Below are positions 8,436 through 19,210 of a DNA stretch of 64,000 bases, piece by piece. Position 1 is the first letter of the stretch; each line of letters opens with the position of its first letter. The translations under genes were made by a program, and so were the position numbers. Origin of the DNA: Streptomonospora nanhaiensis. Its GTDB lineage: Bacteria; Actinomycetota; Actinomycetes; Streptosporangiales; Streptosporangiaceae. The notes under the pieces are model-generated. The model searched no databases. It saw nothing but the letters and a program-made list of their open reading frames with translations, and was not told where the DNA came from. The stretch covers positions 6,076,001 to 6,140,000 of the forward strand of contig NZ_JACCFO010000001.1 in assembly GCF_013410565.1 (NCBI RefSeq), written 5' to 3'.

Positions 8436-9341
8436 GTGGACGCTCGCCAGCTGGGCTACTTCCTGGCCATCGTGGACCACGGCGGGTTCGGGCGGGCGGC
8501 CGAGCACCTGCACATCGCCCAGCCGTCGCTGTCGCAGACCATCGCGGGGCTGGAGCGCGAGCTGGGCGTGGACCTGTTCCACCGGGTGGGGCGCGGCGCG
8601 GTGCTCACCGACACCGGCGCCCGGATCGTCGAGCCCGCCCGCCAGGTGCTGCGCGACCTGGAGACCGTGCGCGAGACCGCCCGCTCCGCCCGGGGCCTGC
8701 GGCGCGGCCGCGTGTCGCTGGTCACCATGCCCTCGCCCGGCATCGAGCCGCTGACCACTTTGATGACCCGCTTCGCCGCGGCCCACCCGCTGATGACCGT
8801 CAGCGCCGAGAGCGCCTTCACCCCCGAGGAGGTCGTGCAGGCGGTGCGCACCGGCGCGGCCGAGGTCGGCCTGCTCGGGGCGGCCGAACACCCCCGGATC
8901 GCCGACATGCGGGTGCTGCCCGTGGCCGACCAGCCGCTGGTCCTGCTCTCCCCGCCGGGCGACGGCCCGCCGCCGCCCGCCGTGGTGGGCCGCGCCGACC
9001 TGGACGGGCTGCGGCTCGTGGTCTCCCAGCCCGGCAGCCTCATGCGCCGGCTGGTCGACGACATCCTGGCCGGCGGGGTGGAGGCCCACATCGCCGCCGA
9101 GGTCGGCCACCGCACCTCGATCCTGCCGCTGGTGCTCTCGGGGCTGGGCCACGCGGTGGTGCCCGAGTCCTGGCGGCCCATCGCCGAGCGGCTGGGGGCG
9201 CGGGTGCGGCGCATCGAGCCGGTGTCGCTGCTGCGGGTGATCGTGGTCTGCCGCGCGGCCCGGCTCACCCCGGCGGCGCAGGCGTTCCTGGAGACGGTCG
9301 AGGACTACGTCGCCGAGGGCGCCCGCGGCCGCGATTCATAG
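8436..9341 (+). CDS. LysR-family regulator of the dicarboxylate genes
   Basis: 301 residues from GTG 8436 behind AGGAGGAG. The N-terminus LGYFLAIVDHGGFGRAAEHL with AQPSLSQTIAGLERELGVDLF is the LysR winged helix-turn-helix. The rest is the periplasmic-binding-like effector domain with LPLVLSGLGHAVVPES. It sits between a divergent DASS transporter and a co-directional dehydrogenase, the layout known for DmlR/DmlA. Two identical operator-like palindromes, one in the upstream gap and one overlapping its own stop codon, suggest that it controls both flanking genes. Confidence 0.85.
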   Translation: MDARQLGYFLAIVDHGGFGRAAEHLHIAQPSLSQTIAGLERELGVDLFHRVGRGAVLTDTGARIVEPARQVLRDLETVRETARSARGLRRGRVSLVTMPSPGIEPLTTLMTRFAAAHPLMTVSAESAFTPEEVVQAVRTGAAEVGLLGAAEHPRIADMRVLPVADQPLVLLSPPGDGPPPPAVVGRADLDGLRLVVSQPGSLMRRLVDDILAGGVEAHIAAEVGHRTSILPLVLSGLGHAVVPESWRPIAERLGARVRRIEPVSLLRVIVVCRAARLTPAAQAFLETVEDYVAEGARGRDS

Positions 9342-9353
9342 GACGAACCTATG
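9337..9353. promoter_or_regulatory. LysR-type operator, site 2
   Basis: CATAGG-ACGAA-CCTATG, with the same 6-bp arms and 5-nt spacing as 8400-8416. It covers the lysR stop codon (9339-9341) and lies 82 nt before the dehydrogenase start. Confidence 0.65.
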
Positions 9354-9434
9354 AGCGGTATCGGGGATCGGTCTTGGACGCCGCCGGCGGCCGGGCGGTT
9401 GACTCGCCGTGCGAGCCGAGCCGATGGAGGAGCC

Positions 9435-10517
9435 ATGACCCAGTCCCGCCGCTTCCGTATCGCCGCGATCCCCGGCGACGGGGTGGGCGCCGAGGTGGTC
9501 GCCGCCGGGCGCCAGGTCCTCGACGCCCTCGCCGCCGACTCCGGCGGCGCCCTGGAGTTCGCCTGGACGGAGTTCCCCTGGGGCTGCGACCACTACGCCC
9601 GTACCGGCGCCATGATGGACGACGACGGCCTGGAGCGGGTCCGCGGCTTCGACGCCCTCTACTTCGGCGCCGTGGGCTGGCCCACGGTCCCCGACCACGT
9701 CAGCCTGTGGGGCCTGCGGCTGCGGCTGTGCCAGAACCTCGACCAGTGGGCCAACGTCCGCCCCGTCCACTTCCTGCCCGGCGTCGCCGGCCCGCTGCGC
9801 GCCGCCGACACCGAAGACCTTGACTGGGTGGTGGTCCGCGAGAACTCCGAGGGCGAGTACGGCGGTTTCGGCGGCCGCAACTTCTCCGGCCGCGGGCCGG
9901 GCGCCGAGGTGGCGGTGCAGTCGGCGGTGTTCACCGAGGCCGGCTGCGAGCGGATCATGCGCTTCGCCTTCGACCTGGCGCGCACCCGCGCCCGCCGCAA
10001 GGTCTCCAGCGTCACCAAGAGCAACGCCCAGCAGTACGGCATGGTGCTGTGGGACGAGGTGTTCGCCCGGGTGGCCGCCGACTACCCCGACGTGGAGACC
10101 GAGAGCGTGCTGGTCGACGCCATGGCCGCCAAGTTCGTGCTGCGGCCCCAGGACCTGTCGGTGGTGGTGGCCTCCAACCTGCACGCCGACATCCTCTCCG
10201 ACCTGGGCAGCGCCCTGGCCGGCAGCCTCGGCCTGGCCGCCAGCGCCAACCTCAACCCCGAGCGGCGCTTCCCCGGCATGTTCGAGCCGGTCCACGGCTC
10301 GGCCCCCGACATCGCCGGGCAGGGCGTGTGCAACCCCGTGGGCGCCATCGGCAGCGCCGCCCTCATGCTGCGCCACCTGGGCCTGCCCGCCGAGGCCGAC
10401 CGGGTCGAGCGCGCCGTCCGGGCCGCCTGCGCCCAGGGGGTGCTCACCCGCGACGTCGGCGGCACGGCCACCACCAAGGACGTCACCGCCGCCGTGGTCG
10501 ACCACCTGGGCGACTGA
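9435..10517 (+). CDS. Tartrate/D-malate dehydrogenase (isopropylmalate-dehydrogenase superfamily)
   Basis: 360 residues from ATG 9435 behind GGAGGAG. Motifs of the beta-decarboxylating dehydrogenases: IPGDGVG near the N-terminus, NLDQWANVRP, VVVRENSEGEYGGFGGR, the catalytic Lys in VTKSNAQQYGMVLWDEVF, metal-binding Asp residues in LVDAMAAKFV and ASNLHADILSDLGS, and FEPVHGSAPDIAGQG for NAD binding. The SNAQ-YGM-LWDE form is that of tartrate dehydrogenase/D-malate dehydrogenase (TtuC/DmlA) rather than LeuB. It oxidises and decarboxylates D-malate or tartrate in the cytoplasm with NAD+ and Mn2+. It is probably the catabolic step after uptake by the DASS transporter. Confidence 0.85.
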   Translation: MTQSRRFRIAAIPGDGVGAEVVAAGRQVLDALAADSGGALEFAWTEFPWGCDHYARTGAMMDDDGLERVRGFDALYFGAVGWPTVPDHVSLWGLRLRLCQNLDQWANVRPVHFLPGVAGPLRAADTEDLDWVVVRENSEGEYGGFGGRNFSGRGPGAEVAVQSAVFTEAGCERIMRFAFDLARTRARRKVSSVTKSNAQQYGMVLWDEVFARVAADYPDVETESVLVDAMAAKFVLRPQDLSVVVASNLHADILSDLGSALAGSLGLAASANLNPERRFPGMFEPVHGSAPDIAGQGVCNPVGAIGSAALMLRHLGLPAEADRVERAVRAACAQGVLTRDVGGTATTKDVTAAVVDHLGD

Positions 10518-10579: not shown

Positions 10580-11875
10580 TCAGCGCGCGGCGGGCGCGGC
10601 CGCGAGCAGGTCGGCGGCCGTCCCGCACGCGGTCGCGCCCTCGGCCAGCCCCAGCCACCGGCCGGCCGAGGCGCCCACGTCGGCGAGCGTGGCCAGGTCG
10701 GCGCCGCGCACCGCCCCGGGCACTCCGCCCGCGGCGGCCAGCACCGGCACCCACTCGCGGGTGTGGAAGGGGTGGCCCCGCGCGGGGTCGTTGCCGTGGT
10801 CGCCGGTGACCACCAGCAGGTCGCCGCCGCCCAGCCGCGCCGCTATTCCCGGCAGCGCGGCGTCGACCAGTTCGAGCTGGTCGGCGAACGCCTCGGGGTC
10901 GCGGGAGTGCCCGGCCAGGTCGGTGCGCTGCACGTTGGCCACCACCAGGCCCCGGCCCGCCAGTTCGCGCACCGAGCCCAGGATCCGCTCGGTCTCGACC
11001 TCGGGGCGGCGCTCGACCGGCTCGTCGGTGCGCAGCAGGTCGGCGGCCTTGCCCACGAGCGCCACCGGCCGGCCGCGGGCCGCGGCGGCGCCGTGCAGCT
11101 GGCGGCGGTGGTCGACCTCGGCGCCCAGGTGCAGCACCCGCAGCCCGCCGTTGCGGTAGAACCCACTGGCCGGGGTGTCCAGTCCGACCGTGCCGTCGGC
11201 GCCGGCGCGCACCGCGCCGGCGAGGGGGCCGTCGGAGTGCCCGCCCACGGCGATGACCCGCGCCACCGGGGCCACCGCGCGCACGGTGCGCGCGATCGCC
11301 ACGATCTCCTCGAACGCCGCGTCGGCCAGCCGGCCCGAGACGTTCCAGTTCAGCCCGGGGTCGGCCTCCAGGTTGTCGTGCACCAGCGCCGTGCCGTCCA
11401 CCACCAGCACCGGGCCGCCCTCCAGCGGCTCCACCCGGTGCCCGGCCGCCTTCAGCGCGGCGGTGACCTCCTCGGCGGACTCGGCCAGCCGGCGCAGCAC
11501 CACGTGCGACATGTCGGCGCCCATGAGGGTCTGGTGCCCGGCGAAGGAGTCCGCGCCGGGGTAGCCCAGCGCGGAGCGGGCGCCGGCCGCGCGCAGCAGC
11601 GGGACGGGCGGCGCCAGCGCGCCGGCCAGGTCGGGGCGCACGGCCGCCAGGCCCAGGCCGGCCAGGTGGGGGACGGCCAGCGGGCGGCCCCGCCGCGCCA
11701 GCGACCAGCGCGCCACCGCGCCGAGGGTGTCGGCGTCGGCGTCGGCGGGCCGCAGGTCGGCGGCGTCGGGCAGCGCGCCCACGCCCAGGCCGTCCAGGAC
11801 CAGCAGGGTGGCCGAGCGGCGCGCCGGGTCCGGGGGCAAGGCGGCGGGGCGCCGTGCGGCGGACGGCGCGCTCAC
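10580..11875 (-). CDS. yhfW: YhfW-like phosphopentomutase-family (alkaline phosphatase superfamily) protein
   Basis: 431 residues from GTG 11875, overlapping the yhfX stop (GTGA). Metal-site motifs of the DeoB/alkaline-phosphatase fold are visible: LLVLDGLGVGALPDA at the N-terminus, a Ser/Thr nucleophile segment DSFAGHQTLMGADMSH, a QRTDLAGHSRDPEAF metal loop and LLVVTGDHGNDPARGHPFHTREWVPV at the C-terminus. The family member in E. coli, YhfW, is annotated as a predicted mutase with no proven substrate. As the last gene of the yhf operon it may isomerise a sugar phosphate made by the upstream enzymes (inference). The residue set appears complete. Confidence 0.8.
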   Translation of the reverse strand: MSAPSAARRPAALPPDPARRSATLLVLDGLGVGALPDAADLRPADADADTLGAVARWSLARRGRPLAVPHLAGLGLAAVRPDLAGALAPPVPLLRAAGARSALGYPGADSFAGHQTLMGADMSHVVLRRLAESAEEVTAALKAAGHRVEPLEGGPVLVVDGTALVHDNLEADPGLNWNVSGRLADAAFEEIVAIARTVRAVAPVARVIAVGGHSDGPLAGAVRAGADGTVGLDTPASGFYRNGGLRVLHLGAEVDHRRQLHGAAAARGRPVALVGKAADLLRTDEPVERRPEVETERILGSVRELAGRGLVVANVQRTDLAGHSRDPEAFADQLELVDAALPGIAARLGGGDLLVVTGDHGNDPARGHPFHTREWVPVLAAAGGVPGAVRGADLATLADVGASAGRWLGLAEGATACGTAADLLAAAPAAR

Positions 11876-13038
11876 GCGACCCGCCCGCCCAGCGCGTCGA
11901 ACACGCCGTCGAGGACGGGCCGCCCGGAGCCGATGCCCGAGACCACGGCCACCCGGCTGCGCGTCACGAACACCTGGGTGCGGAACGCCATGACGGCGGT
12001 GTCGCCGACATGCGCGCCCGCGCCCTCCTCCAGCCAGTCGAACCGGCGGTAGTAGTCGATGCTGGCGGCCGGGGCCGAGCGCAGCGCGGCCCGCCGCGCG
12101 CCGCCCGAGGTCGCGATCAGCGCCTCGCGCTCGTGGCCCCGGCTGTAGAACCCGCCGCCGAACACGCTGGGCGCCGACCCCAGTTGGGCGACCTCCGAGA
12201 CGTAGACGATCGCGGGCCGCTCGGCCAGGCCGGGGTCCTCGGCGTGCTCGGGGGTGGTGCCGGTCAGGGCGTGCCCGGGCTCGCCGAACGCGCCGCCCAG
12301 GGCGGCGATGCAGGGGACGGTGCTCACACTGGTGTGGCTGGGCAGCGACAGCACGGGGTCGGCCACCCCCAGGTCGCGCAGCAGGGCCGCGGCCGCGCGC
12401 ACCCGCTCCAGGGTGCCGGTGGGCCGGGGGCGGCCCGCCTCGGGGTCGAAGCTGATGCAGGGGAACCCGGTGGCGCCGGCGACCTCCACCCCCGGCAGGC
12501 GCGCGGCGCGCTTCACCGCGTCGGCCAGGCCGTCGGCCTCGAACCCGCCGTCCTGGCCCGGGAACGTGGTCTCGGGCGCGCCGCGCACCCGCAGCAGCAC
12601 CCGCTGGCGGCGCCCCAGCGCGGCGGCGGCCTCGGCCACCGCCGCCAGGTTCTCCAGGTCGAAGACGGTGACATAGGCGGGCTCGTGCGCCAGGACCCGG
12701 GGCAGCAGCCGGCGCGGCGTCTGCACCAGGTGCCCGGTGTTGCCCAGCCGGGCTCCGGCGGCCACGGCCGCCTCGGCCTCGCGGTGGTCGATCGCGGCGG
12801 CGAAGGGCAGGTGGCGGGCGACCGTGGCGGTCACCAGGGGGTTGCGCCCGTACTGCTTGGCGACGAACCACAGGCCCACGCCGTGCTCGGCGCCGGCCGC
12901 GGCCAGGGCGGCGGCGTTGTGCTCGACCGTGTCGCGGTCGATGACGTAGGTGTCGGGCTCGATGGCGCCGGAGCGGTGCAGCGCCACGGCGGCGTCGATG
13001 AGGGCGGGGTTGCGGCGCTCGGTCATCCGCAGGAACAT
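11872..13038 (-). CDS. yhfX: YhfX-like PLP enzyme (fold-type III, amino-acid racemase-like)
   Basis: 388 residues from ATG 13038, overlapping the yhfS stop by one base. An alternative ATG lies 12 nt in. The N-terminal PEPTYVIDRDTVEHNAAALA-like strand and the candidate PLP Lys61 in WFVAKQYGRNP match the alanine-racemase barrel family to which YhfX belongs. Further conserved segments are GATGFPCISFD, SLPSHTSVSTVPCIAALGG, HALTGTTPEH and GGGFYSRGHEREALI. The E. coli homologue has no demonstrated reaction. It is encoded between an aminotransferase-like and a mutase-like gene, suggesting a pathway for an unusual amino compound (inference). Confidence 0.85.
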   Translation of the reverse strand: MFLRMTERRNPALIDAAVALHRSGAIEPDTYVIDRDTVEHNAAALAAAGAEHGVGLWFVAKQYGRNPLVTATVARHLPFAAAIDHREAEAAVAAGARLGNTGHLVQTPRRLLPRVLAHEPAYVTVFDLENLAAVAEAAAALGRRQRVLLRVRGAPETTFPGQDGGFEADGLADAVKRAARLPGVEVAGATGFPCISFDPEAGRPRPTGTLERVRAAAALLRDLGVADPVLSLPSHTSVSTVPCIAALGGAFGEPGHALTGTTPEHAEDPGLAERPAIVYVSEVAQLGSAPSVFGGGFYSRGHEREALIATSGGARRAALRSAPAASIDYYRRFDWLEEGAGAHVGDTAVMAFRTQVFVTRSRVAVVSGIGSGRPVLDGVFDALGGRVA

Positions 13039-14165
13039 CAGGCGGCCCCTTCGGCCAGCGCCGCGCGCAGGATCGCGGCGGTCAGCCCGGCACCGGCCCG
13101 CATGGGGTTGACGCGCACCGCCCACGGGCGCAGGTCGGGCCGGGCGGCCAGCGCCGCCGAGGACAGCCGGTAGACCAGGGGGGTGATCTCGAACCGGGAG
13201 TTGGAGCCCACCGGGTAGGGGATCGCGCCGTGGCGGGCCGCCCAGGCGGGCACGTGCTCGGCGACCGGGCGCTCCAGCAGCGCCACCACGCACAGGTCCT
13301 GGGCGTTGGCCAGGCGGGCGTCGACCACGCCGGGCACCTCGCCCGCCGCCAGCAGGTCGCGCAGCTCCACGGCCGCACGGGCCTGCGCGGCCCAGTTCAG
13401 CGGCACCATGACCAGCGCCTGGAGTGCCGCCAGCGCCTGGTGGCCCTGCACCTGGCCGCCGCCGGAGTAGTTGGCGGCGCGGGCGCGGGCCACCACCTCG
13501 GCGTCGCCCAGCACCACGCCCACGCCCTCGGGGCCGTGCAGCTTGAACAGCGAGAACGCCGACACGTCGGCGCCCAACTCCACCCCGGTGCGGGGCGTGC
13601 GGTACACCGCGTAGTTGTCGTCCACGACCACCCCGCGGCCGGCGGCGCGCGCCGCGGCGATGACCTCGGCCGGGCTGTGCCGGTCGGCCAGCCGCTGGCG
13701 GGTGTGCTGGACGTAGACCCAGCGGGCGGGGTCCTCGGCCAGCGCCCGCGCCAGGGCGGCGGGGTCCTCGTAGTCCACGCGCACCACCTCGGCCGCGCCG
13801 TCGCGCAGGGTGGTGGCGGTCGTGGAGTAGTCGGGGGCGTCGTGGGCGATGATCCGGCGGGTGCCCTCGGCCCAGGGCCCCGCCGACAGCGCGGCGCGGA
13901 TGGCGCCGGTGCCGGCGCCCTGCACCAGGCACGCGTCGGCGGCGCCGAAGGCCTCGGCCAGCGCCGCCTCGACCCGGCGGGTGGTGTCGGGGCGGCCGGT
14001 GCCGGGCACCACCCCGGCGTCGGCGCGGAACTGCTCGGCGCCGGGCAGGTGCGCCGCCACGGCCGCGACGAGGCGCTGCTGGGCGCGCTCGGCGTCGGCC
14101 GCGGTGGCGATGGGCAGGGGCGCGGTGGCGGGCAGTTCGGGCCGCCCGCCCTCCCTGGCGGTCAT
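13038..14165 (-). CDS. yhfS: YhfS-like PLP-dependent aminotransferase/lyase family protein
   Basis: 375 residues from ATG 14165 (ATGA overlap with php). Fold-type I PLP features: the cofactor-binding QGAGTGAIRAAL loop at about 82-93, the Asp pair in VVVDDNYAVYR at about 179-189 and the Schiff-base Lys208 in FSLFKLHGPEGVG. This matches the YhfS branch of the Cys/Met-metabolism enzymes, whose substrate is unknown. The neighbouring php product (a metal-dependent hydrolase) and yhfX product are likely partners in one pathway. Confidence 0.85.
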   Translation of the reverse strand: MTAREGGRPELPATAPLPIATAADAERAQQRLVAAVAAHLPGAEQFRADAGVVPGTGRPDTTRRVEAALAEAFGAADACLVQGAGTGAIRAALSAGPWAEGTRRIIAHDAPDYSTTATTLRDGAAEVVRVDYEDPAALARALAEDPARWVYVQHTRQRLADRHSPAEVIAAARAAGRGVVVDDNYAVYRTPRTGVELGADVSAFSLFKLHGPEGVGVVLGDAEVVARARAANYSGGGQVQGHQALAALQALVMVPLNWAAQARAAVELRDLLAAGEVPGVVDARLANAQDLCVVALLERPVAEHVPAWAARHGAIPYPVGSNSRFEITPLVYRLSSAALAARPDLRPWAVRVNPMRAGAGLTAAILRAALAEGAA

Positions 14166-15088
14166 GACTCCTCCGTTCCGGTCAGCCACCGCAGTGCGTT
14201 GGCCCGGTAGAGCAGGTCGAGTGTGGGCTCGTCGACGCCGCGCTCGGCCAGGGCGCGGCGGAAGGGGCCCAGCACGTGGCCGAACCCCTGGCCGCCGCGC
14301 GAGGCCAGGTAGGCGTCGCGGGAGATGTCGTTGCTGAGCAGGACGCGGCGCGCGTGCCCGGCCTCCAGCAGGTCCAGCAGCAGCGCCAGCCGGTGCTCGT
14401 CGGAGCGGTAGGACGCCTTGCCGACGGTGTCGAAGGCGACGTAGGCCCCGGCCTCGGCGATGGCGCGGTGCTGGCCGGGGTCCTCGGCGAGGTCCTGGTG
14501 GCCGATGGAGACCCGGTGCGGGGGCACGCCGGCGCCGGTGAGCAGGTCCAGTTGCTCCAGGGCGCCCTGCCCCAGGTGGGCGTGGGTGGCCACCGGCAGG
14601 CCGGTGGCCGCGGCGGCGCGCCCGGCGGCCAGCAGCCCGGTGCGCTCGGCCGGGGTGGCGGCGGGGCCGTGGCTGCCGACCTCGCCGATCACCCCCGGCC
14701 GGATCCCGGTGCCGGCCACGCCCTCCTCGATCTCGGCTACGAGCAGGTCGGCGGCGCGCTCCACCGAGCCGCCGGGCTCGCCGCCGGGGTGGAACCGCTC
14801 GTAGTACCACCCGGTCGCCACGACCACGGGCACCCCGGAGCGCTCGGAGATCGACCGGACGGCGCGCACGTCGCGGCCCATGCCCCGGCAGGTGAGGTCC
14901 ACGACCAGGCCCAGGCCGTGCTTGGCGCGGGCCGCGCGCAGTTCGGCGACCACGGCGGCGTCGTCGGTGACGGCCGCCGCCGGGTCGGCGGGCGTGGTCA
15001 GGTCGATCCGCAGGTGCTCGTGGGCCAGGACGGCGCCGGCGACCCCGGCCGGCGCCGTCCGCTGCCCGGTGACGGTGCGGATCATCAT
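14162..15088 (-). CDS. php: Phosphotriesterase homology protein (Php)
   Basis: 308 residues from ATG 15088, overlapping the yhfT stop. The binuclear metal centre of the PTE/PHP amidohydrolases is visible: HEH in VLAHEHLRIDL (about 23-25), bridging Glu in VIGEVGSHG, His in VATHAHLG, His in VSIGHQDL and Asp in LLSNDIS. Glu as the bridging ligand, rather than a carboxylated Lys, is what distinguishes Php from phosphotriesterase. The family hydrolyses lactones or phosphate esters in other lineages, but the substrate of Php itself is not known. It lies in the middle of the operon between the transporter and the PLP enzymes. Confidence 0.9.
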   Translation of the reverse strand: MMIRTVTGQRTAPAGVAGAVLAHEHLRIDLTTPADPAAAVTDDAAVVAELRAARAKHGLGLVVDLTCRGMGRDVRAVRSISERSGVPVVVATGWYYERFHPGGEPGGSVERAADLLVAEIEEGVAGTGIRPGVIGEVGSHGPAATPAERTGLLAAGRAAAATGLPVATHAHLGQGALEQLDLLTGAGVPPHRVSIGHQDLAEDPGQHRAIAEAGAYVAFDTVGKASYRSDEHRLALLLDLLEAGHARRVLLSNDISRDAYLASRGGQGFGHVLGPFRRALAERGVDEPTLDLLYRANALRWLTGTEES

Positions 15089-16479
15089 GAGGCGGGGGTG
15101 AACAGGCCGACGAGGTGGAGCAGGTTGAGCACGATCCCGGCGGCGATGACGGCCGTCGGGCCGGCGGCCATGCGCACGACCGGCCGCCCCAGCGACTCGT
15201 TGAACAGGTAGAGCCCGCCGACCAGGGCGATGCCCAGGCCCTCGCCCATCGCCAGGCCGGCCATGAGCGAGCCCACCAGGATCGCCAGCGACAGCGACTC
15301 GGTGATGGCGGCGCGGATGTGGTCGGCGGCGTCGCGGATGCTGGGGCGCCGCTGCAGCCACCGGCCCAGCGCGCTGAGCAGGTAGACCTCGGCCGCCATG
15401 ACGACCGCGCCCAGCACGAACGCCGCGCCCATGGCCAGCGGCCAGGAGTCGACGAACACGTGCACCAGGTAGCCCACCGGGTAGACGAACGTGAACCCGG
15501 CCATGGCGTAGGCGCCCGAGGCCAGCGCGGTGGTGGCGATCAGCGGCACGAACCCGAACGCCCGCAGGAAGTCGACCTGGGCGGCCTCGGTGTAGGAGCC
15601 GTCGGCCACCAGGAAGCTGGTGGCCTCGCCGCCGCCGAACACGCCGCTCGCGGCGAGCGCGGCGACCAGGCCGCCCAGCACCGCCAGCCAGGGCGCGTTG
15701 CGGCGCAGCCGGTCGGCGCTGGGCCCGAACAGCTGGTCGGAGGCCGCGGCGGTGGCGGCCTGCCGCTCCTCGTGGGCCCGGCGCTCCTCCTCGGTCTTGG
15801 CGGCGAGTTCGGCGGTCTCGGCCCGCTTGGCGGCCCGGTCGCGCAGCACCGCGAAGACCAGCAGCAGGATCACGCCCAGCGCCATGGCGGCCGACCCGGG
15901 GAAGAGGTCGGGCCACAGCCGCATCGACGCCACGATGACCGCGGCCTCGGCGACGAGCGCGACCAGGCCTTTGGTGCGGCCGAACTGCCGGGTGATCGCC
16001 AGCACCGGGAAGATCGCGAACAGCCACAGGATCGGCGTCGAGATCTCCTGCAGGGCGCTGATGAAGTCGACCGGCAGCCCGGTGGCCACCCGGTTGGCGG
16101 CGTTGAGCCCGAACACGCAGACCGCGCCCCACAGCGCGCCCGCGCCGGCGGCCAGCCACCGCCACGGCGCCAGCAGGCCCAGGATCTCCACGGGCAGGAA
16201 GACCAGCCACGGGTTGAGGACGCCGGTGGACAGCGCCATGGGCGCGCCCAGTCCGAAGATGAACCCGGCGGAGAGCCCGAAGACGATGGTGGCCGTGGCC
16301 GGGCGGGTGGAGCGGCCCTGGATGTAGTCGAGCATGAAGGGGCGCGCGCCGTCGTTGAAGACGGCCAGCGCCGCGTTGGCGATGAGCGCCGCGAAGGCGC
16401 ACAGCACGATGACGAGGCCGGCCTGCCAGGGCTCGAAGGAGACGCCGGCGGAGGCGGCGGTGGTGGTCGCGAGGTCCAT
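15085..16479 (-). CDS. yhfT: YhfT-like integral membrane transporter
   Basis: 464 residues with about 10-12 hydrophobic helices. A cytosolic charged helix at about 195-240 (Arg/Ala/Glu rich, RAAKRAETAELAAKTEEE) separates two halves. Matching segments include VFNDGARPFMLDYIQGR near residue 40 and LVGGLYLFNESLGRPVV near the C-terminus, as in YhfT. The E. coli relative is an uncharacterised inner-membrane protein and presumably imports the compound processed by the operon (inference). Stop and start codons overlap those of php; yhfU ends 3 nt upstream. Confidence 0.85.
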   Translation of the reverse strand: MDLATTTAASAGVSFEPWQAGLVIVLCAFAALIANAALAVFNDGARPFMLDYIQGRSTRPATATIVFGLSAGFIFGLGAPMALSTGVLNPWLVFLPVEILGLLAPWRWLAAGAGALWGAVCVFGLNAANRVATGLPVDFISALQEISTPILWLFAIFPVLAITRQFGRTKGLVALVAEAAVIVASMRLWPDLFPGSAAMALGVILLLVFAVLRDRAAKRAETAELAAKTEEERRAHEERQAATAAASDQLFGPSADRLRRNAPWLAVLGGLVAALAASGVFGGGEATSFLVADGSYTEAAQVDFLRAFGFVPLIATTALASGAYAMAGFTFVYPVGYLVHVFVDSWPLAMGAAFVLGAVVMAAEVYLLSALGRWLQRRPSIRDAADHIRAAITESLSLAILVGSLMAGLAMGEGLGIALVGGLYLFNESLGRPVVRMAAGPTAVIAAGIVLNLLHLVGLFTPAS

Positions 16480-16482
16480 GGG

Positions 16483-16842
16483 TCAGCCCTGGCGCTTCGC
16501 GTCGAGGGCGGCCCACAGCAGCGGCACCACGTCCTGTACCTGGTCCAGGGCGAACCCGAAGGCGACCTTGCCCGCGTCCACCGCCGCCTGGACGTCGGCG
16601 GCGGAGGGCACGCGGCGGCCGAAGGTGTGCGTCCGGTCCGAGCCCAGCAGGCCCACGAGCACGCCCAGGCTGGCGCCGGCGCCGGTGTGGCAGGTGCCCA
16701 GGTAGTAGTCCGCGGCGCCGGTGCGCAGCAGGGCGGCGGCGTCCATGTCGGTGCCCACCTGGACGGTGTCGCCCTCCCGCAGCAGCGGTCGCAGTGTGTC
16801 GGCGACCTCGGACTTGGCGACTCCGCCGGCGATGAACTTCAT
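16483..16842 (-). CDS. yhfU: YhfU-like DUF2620 protein
   Basis: 119 residues from ATG 16842, overlapping the yhfY stop. An alpha/beta protein starting MKFIAGGVAKSEVADTL, with a conserved YYLGTCHTGAGASLGVL segment holding the single Cys51 next to His52, and a KVAFGFALDQV helix. DUF2620 proteins occur almost only in yhf clusters. The size, the single Cys and the presence of a PRD protein next door raise the possibility of a phospho-carrier role like a PTS EIIB domain. That is speculation from context, not from homology. Confidence 0.85.
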   Translation of the reverse strand: MKFIAGGVAKSEVADTLRPLLREGDTVQVGTDMDAAALLRTGAADYYLGTCHTGAGASLGVLVGLLGSDRTHTFGRRVPSAADVQAAVDAGKVAFGFALDQVQDVVPLLWAALDAKRQG

Positions 16843-17219
16843 GGCTTCTCCTTTGGCGAGGTGAGGGCGAGCGTGCCCAGGTGGAGGCTGAGGTAGCGCC
16901 GTTCGGCCTCGGACAGCCGCACGCCGAGGGCCGCCTCGGCGCGGTCGGCCAGCCCGGCGGCCGCGGCGGGGGCGCCGGGCACGGCCTCGGTGACCTCCCG
17001 GTAGACCGCCTCGGACGGCGGGTCCACGTCAGGTTCGCCGCCGAGCGCCCGGGTGAGGGCGGCCACCAGGTGGGCGGTCAGGGTGCCCGCCGTCTCCTCG
17101 GTGACGTGGTGGGCGTCCTCCAGGCGGGACAGTTCGGCGGCGACGAAGTCCACCACGCCCGGCGGTGTGCCGGGCAGGCCGCGGACGAGGTCGAGCCGCT
17201 GGAGAAGGGCCGGGTCCAT
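16839..17219 (-). CDS. yhfY: YhfY-like PRD-domain protein
   Basis: 126 residues; ATG 17219. It is all-helical, with a conserved HLVAALTRAL helix (His near 50) and a terminal SEAERRYLSLHLGTL motif. The latter is the signature end of PTS-regulation domains (the His in YLSLH is normally phosphorylated by HPr or EIIB). It lacks any DNA-binding domain, so it cannot be an antiterminator by itself. It starts 15 nt after the yhfZ stop and may transmit carbon or phosphate status to YhfZ or YhfU (inference). Confidence 0.8.
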   Translation of the reverse strand: MDPALLQRLDLVRGLPGTPPGVVDFVAAELSRLEDAHHVTEETAGTLTAHLVAALTRALGGEPDVDPPSEAVYREVTEAVPGAPAAAAGLADRAEAALGVRLSEAERRYLSLHLGTLALTSPKEKP

Positions 17220-17234
17220 CGCGAGCGCTCCTCT

Positions 17235-18149
17235 CTAGTAGGTGGGGATCCGCGTGCCCGCCACGACCTCGGCGGCGGCGGCCATGACGACGTCGGCGGC
17301 CAGCGCCTCCCGCACGGCGACGGGCGCGGGGTCGGCGCCGCGGCGCGCCACGACGACGGCGGAGGTGGTGGCCGTGTCGTCCACGCCGTCCAGCGGGTGG
17401 ACGGTGATGGGCGCGGCGATGTGGGCGTCGACCTCGTCGACGTTCCACACGGTGGCGTCCACCAGGCCGTCGGCGAAGTGGCGGCCGAGCTGGTTGTAGG
17501 AGACCTCCACCCGGCGCTCGGGGGGCAGGCCGGGGAACCGCAGGGCGGTCAGCTCGCGCTGGTCGGCCGAGGAGGGGTCCACGGCCAGGCGCAGGTCGGG
17601 GTCGTCGGGGTCGCGGCCCTGGGCCACCACCAGGCCGTGGGCGCCCACGTAGGTCTGGGGGCCGAAGTCGCGCACGATCTCCAGTTCGGGGTCGGCGCGG
17701 GCGGCGAAGCCCGACATCACCGCGAAGTCGGCGCGTCCCTGGCGGACGGCCCGCGCCCGGTTGGCCGAGCCGCGCACGAACATCAGCGTGCAGGGCAGGC
17801 CCAGCTGCTCGAAGGCGGCGTGCAGGCCGGTGGCCAGGCCCTCGTAGCGGCGGGTGTAGGGCAGCGGCATGGCGATGGGGATGGACCCGCTGCCGGCCAG
17901 CTCCCAGACCAGCCGGTGGTCGATGGCCGCGATGAAGGTGCCCAGCTTGCCGCGCGAGCGGATCTCGACGGCGCCGGCCTCCTCCAGCAGCGCCAGAGCC
18001 GCCTGGACGGTGCCCTTGCCCACGCCGTGGCGCTCGCTCAGCTCCTGGGCCGTGGGCATGCGGTCGCCCACGGAGGCCGACGTCAGCTCGGCGGCCATGC
18101 TGTGGGCCACCGCGCCGGCCTTGGACATCAGCACCTGCATACGGGACAT
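17235..18149 (-). CDS. yhfZ: YhfZ-like GntR-type transcriptional regulator
   Basis: 304 residues from ATG 18149. That start is chosen because a TATATT -10-like element ends 7 nt upstream, predicting a leaderless mRNA; internal ATGs at 18140 and 18128 are alternatives. The N-terminus SASVGDRMPTAQELSERHGVGKGTVQAAL is a winged helix of the GntR type. Residues about 95-300 look like a periplasmic-binding-protein fold (RRYEGLATGLHAAFEQLG, QGRADFAVMSGFAA, PQTYVGAHGLVVAQ) rather than a UTRA domain, as in YhfZ. It is the first gene of the operon and probably binds the AT-rich palindrome at 18157-18181 and a small ligand. Confidence 0.85.
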   Translation of the reverse strand: MSRMQVLMSKAGAVAHSMAAELTSASVGDRMPTAQELSERHGVGKGTVQAALALLEEAGAVEIRSRGKLGTFIAAIDHRLVWELAGSGSIPIAMPLPYTRRYEGLATGLHAAFEQLGLPCTLMFVRGSANRARAVRQGRADFAVMSGFAARADPELEIVRDFGPQTYVGAHGLVVAQGRDPDDPDLRLAVDPSSADQRELTALRFPGLPPERRVEVSYNQLGRHFADGLVDATVWNVDEVDAHIAAPITVHPLDGVDDTATTSAVVVARRGADPAPVAVREALAADVVMAAAAEVVAGTRIPTY

Positions 18150-18156
18150 GCGGAGC

Positions 18157-18181
18157 AATATATTCAATATTCTGGATATTG
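18157..18181. promoter_or_regulatory. yhf operon promoter/operator
   Basis: This is an AT-rich island in otherwise GC-rich DNA. CAATAT-TCTGG-ATATTG (18165-18181) is a perfect 6-bp inverted repeat, and the adjoining minus-strand TATATT (18162-18157) could be the -10 of a leaderless transcript starting at yhfZ ATG 18149. Probable autoregulatory site for YhfZ. Confidence 0.5.
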
Positions 18182-18382: not shown

Positions 18383-19210
18383 ATGAGCACCCCCTTCCCC
18401 CCGGCCGACGAGTCCCGCGAGGCTCCTCCCTCCCTCGACCTGTCGGTGCCGCACTCCGCGCGGGTGTGGAACTACTGGCTGGGCGGCAAGGACAACTACG
18501 CCGCCGACCGCGCCGCGGGCGACGACGTGCTGCGCCGCCTGCCCGACATCGCCGACGGCGCCCGCGCCGAGCGCGCGTTCCTCATCCGGGTGATCCACCA
18601 CCTGGTGCGCGAGGCCGGCATCCGGCAGTTCCTCGACATCGGCACCGGCCTGCCCACCATGAACAACACCCACGAGGTCGCCCAGGAGCTGGCGCCGGAG
18701 TCGCGGGTGGTCTACGTCGACAACGACCCGCTGGTGATGGTGCACGCCCGCGCGCTGCTGACCAGCAGCCCCGAGGGCGCCACCAACTACATCGAGGCCG
18801 ACCTGCGCGAGCCCGAGGCCATCCTGGAGGCGGCCCGCGCCACGCTGGACTTCAGCCGGCCGGTGGGGCTCATGCTGCTGGGCGTGGTCAACCACCTCGT
18901 GGACACCGAGCGGTCCTACGCGGTCGTGGCGCGCCTGGTCGAGGAGTTGGCGCCGGGCAGCCACCTGGTGCTGACCCACTCCACCGCCGAGATCCACGGC
19001 GAGCCGATGCTGGAGGTCATGCGCGAGATGAACGAGCGCGGCGGCACCCCCATCATCGCCCGCAGCCGCAAGGAGATCGAGGGCTACTTCGCGGGCACCG
19101 AACTGCTGGAGCCGGGCGTGGTGTCCTGCTCCCGCTGGCGCCCCGAGCCCACCGCCGTGGGCGCCCCGCCGGAGGTCTACCTCTTCGGGGGAGTCGGGCG
19201 CGTCGTCTAG
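18383..19210 (+). CDS. SAM-dependent methyltransferase, DUF574 (SAV2177) family
   Basis: 275 residues; ATG 18383 has a GGAG site 7-8 nt upstream. The N-terminal HSARVWNYWLGGKDNYAADRAAGD signature defines the actinobacterial DUF574 family. SAM-binding LDIGTGLPTMNNTHE (about 80-95) and YVDNDPLVMVHARALL follow, then ending YLFGGVGRVV. Members are frequent orphan methyltransferases in actinomycetes with no agreed substrate. It is monocistronic, and its 3' end is overlapped antisense by the degenerate MFS frame. Confidence 0.9.
   Translation: MSTPFPPADESREAPPSLDLSVPHSARVWNYWLGGKDNYAADRAAGDDVLRRLPDIADGARAERAFLIRVIHHLVREAGIRQFLDIGTGLPTMNNTHEVAQELAPESRVVYVDNDPLVMVHARALLTSSPEGATNYIEADLREPEAILEAARATLDFSRPVGLMLLGVVNHLVDTERSYAVVARLVEELAPGSHLVLTHSTAEIHGEPMLEVMREMNERGGTPIIARSRKEIEGYFAGTELLEPGVVSCSRWRPEPTAVGAPPEVYLFGGVGRVV

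Follow-up and report, generated by a model that had tools for sequence, protein, structure and literature searches.

A yhf-type operon in Streptomonospora nanhaiensis and its possible role in phosphotransferase-linked import and breakdown of an amino-sugar-type compound

What does the yhf operon do? It is present in most Escherichia coli genomes (5014 of 5426 carry at least 80% of its length), and a search of the open full-text literature by titles and abstract starts, with most subscription papers and preprints outside its scope, turned up none that gives its function or substrate, despite solved E. coli structures of YhfX (4kbx), YhfS (4j8l), Php (4lef and 1bf6) and a YhfZ domain (2ozz). A 64,000-nucleotide stretch of the Streptomonospora nanhaiensis genome, here called the window, contains an operon of the same kind, which we compared with its relatives in other genomes.

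The operon comprises eight minus-strand genes (10580-18149), with every junction overlapping or at most 15 nt long, upholding the earlier suggestion that the products are made together, likely by co-transcription. Profile matches place seven of the eight genes (YhfZ, DUF2620 or YhfU, YhfT, the phosphotriesterase Php, YhfS-like, YhfX-like and phosphopentomutase-type YhfW), and YhfY is recognized through a family alignment. All eight proteins have counterparts among the E. coli K-12 products YhfZ to YhfS, at 21-45% identity; together with the profile searches, this supports the one-to-one gene assignments of the original prediction. With all eight families on a single strand and separated by short junctions, the operon is real, intact and of a catabolic type, and belongs to the known but uncharacterized E. 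coli yhf kind. The GC content is 0.77 in the operon and 0.76 in the window. The nearest related locus is that of S. mangrovi (L010), whose YhfT is 95% identical. The features are as follows.

18161..18178, minus strand: putative YhfZ operator TATCCAGAATATTGAATA, separated by 11 nt from the start codon of yhfZ downstream
17235..18149, minus strand: yhfZ, GntR-type regulator with a YhfZ C-terminal ligand domain (YhfZ_C 8e-52; YhfZ_full above cut-off; PDB 2ozz E 8e-26)
16839..17219, minus strand: yhfY, PRD protein (PRD in 11 of 12 aligned members; His50, Ala54, Arg57 and Glu106 invariant in 12)
16483..16842, minus strand: yhfU, DUF2620 protein with invariant Cys51, possibly distantly RpiB-like (DUF2620 3.1e-33; weak RpiB similarity)
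15085..16479, minus strand: yhfT, hydrophobic membrane protein, probable transporter (YhfT 1.5e-138; hydropathy)
14162..15088, minus strand: php (yhfV), phosphotriesterase-family metal hydrolase (PTE 3.6e-60; PDB 4lef/1bf6 E about 1e-50)
13038..14165, minus strand: yhfS, fold-I type pyridoxal phosphate (PLP) enzyme (YhfS-like_C 3.6e-33; Aminotran_5 1e-8)
11872..13038, minus strand: yhfX, alanine-racemase-like PLP enzyme (YhfX-like_C 2.8e-23; Ala_racemase_N 2.9e-11)
10580..11875, minus strand: yhfW, phosphopentomutase-like metalloenzyme (PRK12383, 346.6 bits against a cut-off of 254)

Our tentative proposal, to which we give slightly less than even confidence, is that these genes form a single transcription unit whose products take up, in a manner linked to the phosphotransferase system (PTS), and catabolize a small compound of the amino-sugar type: an amino sugar, an amino-sugar acid or a sugar-amino acid conjugate. 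YhfZ would act from a conserved palindrome before its start codon, presumably as a repressor answering a ligand. YhfT would bring the compound into the cell, and YhfY would couple this transport to PTS phosphorylation. YhfU, as a distant RpiB-type partner of YhfY, might bind or isomerize a sugar or sugar phosphate through its invariant cysteine. Php would then cleave open an amide or lactone bond; epimerization at the amino-bearing carbon, followed by elimination or amino transfer, would fall to YhfX and YhfS, and YhfW would shift or remove phosphate, with the carbon finishing as a sugar phosphate; the order of these chemical steps is one that we infer. Import and catabolism of an amino-bearing compound had been suggested in the original prediction; the idea is plausible, with some support from SIS, KDPG-type aldolase and PTS Enzyme I (EI) and HPr genes in relatives.

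The PTS link begins with YhfY. The window's own YhfY scores 19.7 bits against the Pfam PRD model (cut-off 23), and 11 of 12 YhfY sequences match PRD when E values up to 10 are admitted, the best at 7.7e-12. One PRD-type histidine is invariant in all 12 sequences and a second position is His or Asn. YhfY is a PRD protein that has diverged and is recognizable as such only by comparison across its family. Seventeen loci were mapped (the window, L009-L020, L025, L026, L029 and L030), with approximate gene calls from a simple codon-usage script. In one of them, G530, a minus-strand run reads YhfU, YhfY, YhfW, YhfX, HPr, EI and a KDPG-type aldolase, and the frames overlap at U/Y, W/X, X/HPr and HPr/EI. 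Genome content also favors the link: EI and HPr were both found in nine of the nine yhf genomes tested, out of 14 actinobacterial yhf genomes, against EI in 144 of 396 genomes of the phylum sample. The naive odds of finding EI in nine of nine (1.1e-4, or 8.5e-4 on six genera) are not relied upon because they assume independence and a genus count of our own making. On a draft contig (L020), YhfY and YhfU lie in one continuous frame with a possible internal start. The EI and HPr genes of the window's genome lie away from yhf (L032 5541-12604, G000:C1 about 2.678 Mb), with PTS parts that by eye are of N-acetylglucosamine/glucose type and a SIS gene identified by Pfam. In Vibrio halioticoli (L029 5067-9142), a PTS EIIB gene (Pfam), seeming EIIC and EIIA genes and a DUF7916 gene stand on the same strand upstream of yhfZ.

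YhfU was originally described as having a single Cys-His pair; only one cysteine, Cys51, is in fact invariant. An 11-member YhfU profile retrieved six PDB chains up to E 10. The best two, 2ppw (0.048) and 4u8e (0.14), are unnamed there and we take them to be RpiB-like; they align over the same loop as the named ribose/galactose isomerases 3c5y, 3qd5 and 3sdw (E 0.21-0.53), and the sixth chain is a thiazole kinase. Scans of the 11 members gave EF_0830 in two (8.6e-5), PRK09273, presumably RpiB-like, in five (0.0019), Gly_rich_SFCGS in two (0.0018) and LacAB_rpiB in two (best E 0.065, below the Pfam cut-off); lone weak matches count little, because DUF7907 (four of 11, 0.024) and PBP_like (two of 11, 0.02) also turn up. 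Comparison with a 31-sequence RpiB alignment in hhalign gave 25% with weak statistics (P 0.00077) and set the invariant cysteine on the RpiB catalytic cysteine; the N-terminal Asp-His of RpiB has no YhfU equivalent in this alignment. YhfU is likely a distant relative of RpiB, short of established membership in that family.

The cysteine of YhfU is followed by Gly and Ser, resembling EIIB loops. This resemblance, the PRD partner and the occurrence of EI and HPr within one cluster would suit YhfT-YhfU being a true but diverged PTS Enzyme II, with YhfU an EIIB carrying a phospho-cysteine. We consider this quite improbable: against three EIIB groups hhalign gave YhfU 0.1-0.5%, compared with 25% against RpiB (RpiB against EIIB itself, 15.8%), and YhfT gave 0.1-3.2% against four PTS EIIC proteins or pairs, that is, no similarity; the operon also holds no EIIA. 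YhfU likewise gave 0.1-0.5% against YhfY, YhfT and UlaA. The assignment of YhfU as an EIIB, prompted by the Cys-Gly loop, was dropped in favor of RpiB on the profile comparison, and that of YhfT to EIIC or a DUF4310/4311-type family found no model match or profile support. YhfT is a probable transporter, as judged from its sequence, for which family comparisons found no other relatives; a crude hydropathy scan gave overlapping segments and no usable helix number.

A bolder extension of the proposed PTS-linked uptake, which we regard as rather unlikely, is that YhfT-YhfU-YhfY constitutes a new kind of transport module, controlled by the PTS but belonging to none of the known Enzyme II families. 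Phosphorylated HPr would act via the stand-alone PRD protein on a permease whose partner is an RpiB-derived protein that binds a sugar or sugar phosphate, and the yhf enzymes would break down an amino-sugar conjugate along a route not yet described.

Two weak matches encountered elsewhere were taken as chance: a short, partial, below-cut-off DUF2620 match in G022 (L037) reaching neither the RpiB profile nor the motif cysteine, and a below-cut-off EF_0830 match in G247 (L080) that our profiles did not recover. Viral contigs scanned with the YhfU alignment gave 52 pattern matches and no relative.

Clues to the substrate come from neighboring genes. A SIS-domain gene directly follows yhfW in all four Aeromicrobium loci (by Pfam in L012 and L013, judged by the start in the other two), and the G530 yhf contig holds a SIS gene, a cupin glucose-6-phosphate isomerase, a 2-hydroxyacid dehydrogenase and a class III aminotransferase. 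Among four annotated loci with YhfX but none of the other yhf families, one, from a Rhizobium, has a SIS gene next to YhfX, and an ArgE/DapE-like deacylase gene adjoins rhizobial YhfX. For the three SIS proteins tested (L012, L031 and L041), the best NCBIfam model was NagB-II, glucosamine-6-phosphate deaminase, at 136-275 bits, under its 430-bit cut-off. The Cetobacterium locus contains an amidase gene with a Pfam score under the cut-off. Taken together, the NagB-II-like SIS genes, which accompany yhf genes in three lineages, the amidase and the deacylase suggest that the substrate is an amino sugar or a compound of sugar and amino acid.

Several observations weigh against PTS-linked uptake of such a compound. 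EI and HPr lie inside a yhf cluster in only one of the 17 loci, the divergent G530, where YhfT and Php are separate from the run and YhfT is 28% identical to that of the window. The nine-of-nine count of genomes with EI and HPr is neither corrected for kinship nor accompanied by a base rate for HPr. No EI, HPr, EII or SIS gene adjoins the window's operon. The lack of EIIA among its eight genes, of EIIB similarity in YhfU and of EIIC similarity in YhfT, and the sub-threshold NagB-II scores, belong here as well.

The enzymes show conserved catalytic positions. In Php, the residues H-E-H, E, H, H and D are invariant in all 17 loci, with Glu at the bridging place; we take the metal ligands of the phosphotriesterase family to be H-x-H, E/K, H, H and D. 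A single lysine placed as the PLP lysine is invariant in 17 YhfX sequences (fragment number 72) and in 16 YhfS sequences (fragment number 205), and metal-ligand-type Asp/His residues of YhfW are invariant in 15. Because these residues are invariant, Php, YhfX, YhfS and YhfW are expected to be active enzymes.

YhfW also bears on pentose or nucleoside salvage, in which YhfW would be a true phosphopentomutase and YhfU would isomerize a pentose phosphate, with the PLP enzymes acting on an amino-acid-ribose conjugate. YhfW exceeds the cut-off of the phosphopentomutase-named model PRK12383, E. coli YhfW resembles solved phosphopentomutases by sequence (best E 2e-30), and YhfU leans to RpiB. Among Lactobacillus rhamnosus strain-set genes, a table in PMC7513527 includes DUF2620, YhfX, PRD, transaldolase and transketolase genes at nearby accession numbers, suggesting but not showing a common neighborhood. 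The DeoB equivalog TIGR01696 is a different model, on which YhfW reaches 81.9 bits against a cut-off of 341.2. Salvage nevertheless appears unlikely to us: the operon is without nucleosidase, phosphorylase or kinase, the starting Asp-His of RpiB is not matched in YhfU, the window's genome carries a normal RpiB elsewhere, and two Streptomyces keep six of the genes (Y, U, T, Php, S and X; L019 and L020) without YhfW, a YhfW-type model matching in neither whole genome.

How widely do the proposed parts travel together? YhfT is found in two of 396 genomes of the phylum sample, including the window's own, and in three of 150 of the family sample, in which the window's genus is represented by two genomes with YhfT and four listed ones without. 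DUF2620 matches occur in three of the 396 genomes; the two over the cut-off are in the two YhfT genomes, and the third is taken as chance. The window's YhfT is 77-82% identical to those of Aeromicrobium and Jiangella, which we take to belong to other orders, so horizontal spread of the operon is likely. Outside actinobacteria the survey covered E. coli and plasmid records. Yhf genes also occur in three E. coli entries labeled as plasmids (NZ_CP134663.1, NZ_CP141089.1 and NZ_OL790696.1), which measure 4.8-4.9 Mb and are probably mislabeled chromosomes.

The distribution is patchy, resembling a nutrient option. This, and the substrate-type regulator, PRD protein and PTS genes, generally regarded as typical of nutrient operons, argue against a role in repairing or detoxifying damaged metabolites or D-amino acid conjugates, with YhfT as an exporter or exchanger and the repair done by Php and the PLP enzymes. 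The racemase-like nature of YhfX would fit such a role, as would a reduced E. coli strain lacking yhfY to yhfS along with the neighboring frl, described in PMC10652928; overall we think repair improbable. The E. coli fructoselysine operon frlABCDR lies tail to tail with yhf (L009 1911-6784).

All eight families occur in 13 of the 17 mapped loci, a count conditional on YhfT, which led to every locus except the window and that of E. coli. The conservation across phyla stated in the original prediction holds, with loci of this kind in actinobacteria, E. coli, Vibrio and Cetobacterium. In outline the original prediction is right; other expectations failed. Gene order had been thought to be rearranged between phyla, but in 12 of the 13 complete loci the genes run Z-Y-U-T-Php-S-X-W as in the window, Cetobacterium (Fusobacteriota) among them, with only the amidase gene inserted there. 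The order deviates in E. coli and in the incomplete Vibrio locus, and the simplest reading is that the window's order is the older arrangement. Nor do all parts appear to be needed: besides the two six-gene Streptomyces loci, the V. halioticoli plasmid locus has no YhfS within the fetched stretch, and three loci (L019, L020 and G530) have no YhfZ, both absences being judged at the loci alone, without a search elsewhere in these genomes. The G530 contig holds seven yhf families, with YhfS farther along and a GntR-UTRA regulator present. YhfX, finally, occurs alone. Nineteen plasmid records contain YhfX and five of them also YhfT; in the five loci retrieved from the remaining 14 (L038-L042), none of the other seven families was found. 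In the four annotated loci (L038-L041, from alphaproteobacteria, rhizobia and relatives), YhfX is surrounded by a ROK regulator, an M20 hydrolase and an ABC transporter of ribose type. Judged by gene neighborhood, this PLP enzyme therefore has a second context, distinct from yhf.

Regulation by YhfZ is suggested by the near-palindrome TATCCAGAATWYTGRATA immediately upstream of yhfZ. Among 14 loci compared, it is clear in nine of 11 actinobacterial yhfZ loci and weaker in two, and not evident in E. coli, Vibrio and Cetobacterium. Shuffled sequence gave an expectation of 0 matches in the window. Searching five genomes with up to two mismatches recovered the yhf site in every one, and the reversed pattern gave no match in the same genomes. 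The palindrome is likely the YhfZ operator. The window's genome has one additional weak match, with two mismatches, at G000:C1:1545687-1545704, with no gene start nearby in the approximate gene calls. YhfZ is among resistance-screen hits with no function assigned in the accessible text of PMC12147183.

A LysR-type regulator and an isopropylmalate/tartrate-dehydrogenase-like gene, judged by eye (8436-10517, plus strand), converge with yhfW, and such a pair also adjoins the S. mangrovi operon. The gene divergent from yhfZ (18383-19210, plus strand), by eye like an S-adenosylmethionine (SAM)-dependent methyltransferase, is beside yhfZ there too.

The comparison yields a widely shared gene order and a likely operator, ties the operon to the PTS, provides DUF2620 with a probable relative and proposes a class of substrate; this gap in E. 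coli metabolism is therefore directly testable. E. coli K-12 yhfZYXW-php-yhfUTS shares with the window the same eight families, a single strand and tight spacing, but differs in gene order and has no actinobacterial palindrome at yhfZ. The EF_0829/EF_0830-type cassette, which we take to comprise a PRD protein and a glycine-rich SFCGS protein, is echoed by EF_0829 matches in three of 12 YhfY (best 8.3e-7) and EF_0830 matches in two of 11 YhfU; the matches listed do not include YhfY or YhfU of the window, and YhfT matches no DUF4310/4311-type model. YhfU is weakly similar to RpiB/LacAB isomerases over the cysteine loop, but falls below every cut-off, is shorter and does not keep the start motif. 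The passages of PMC4987338 consulted on Salmonella dga and gfr make no mention of the yhf families. These operons have true EII permeases and LevR-like activators, unlike yhf, but import an amino-sugar acid or a sugar-amino acid compound through the PTS under PRD control, much as we propose for the yhf operon.

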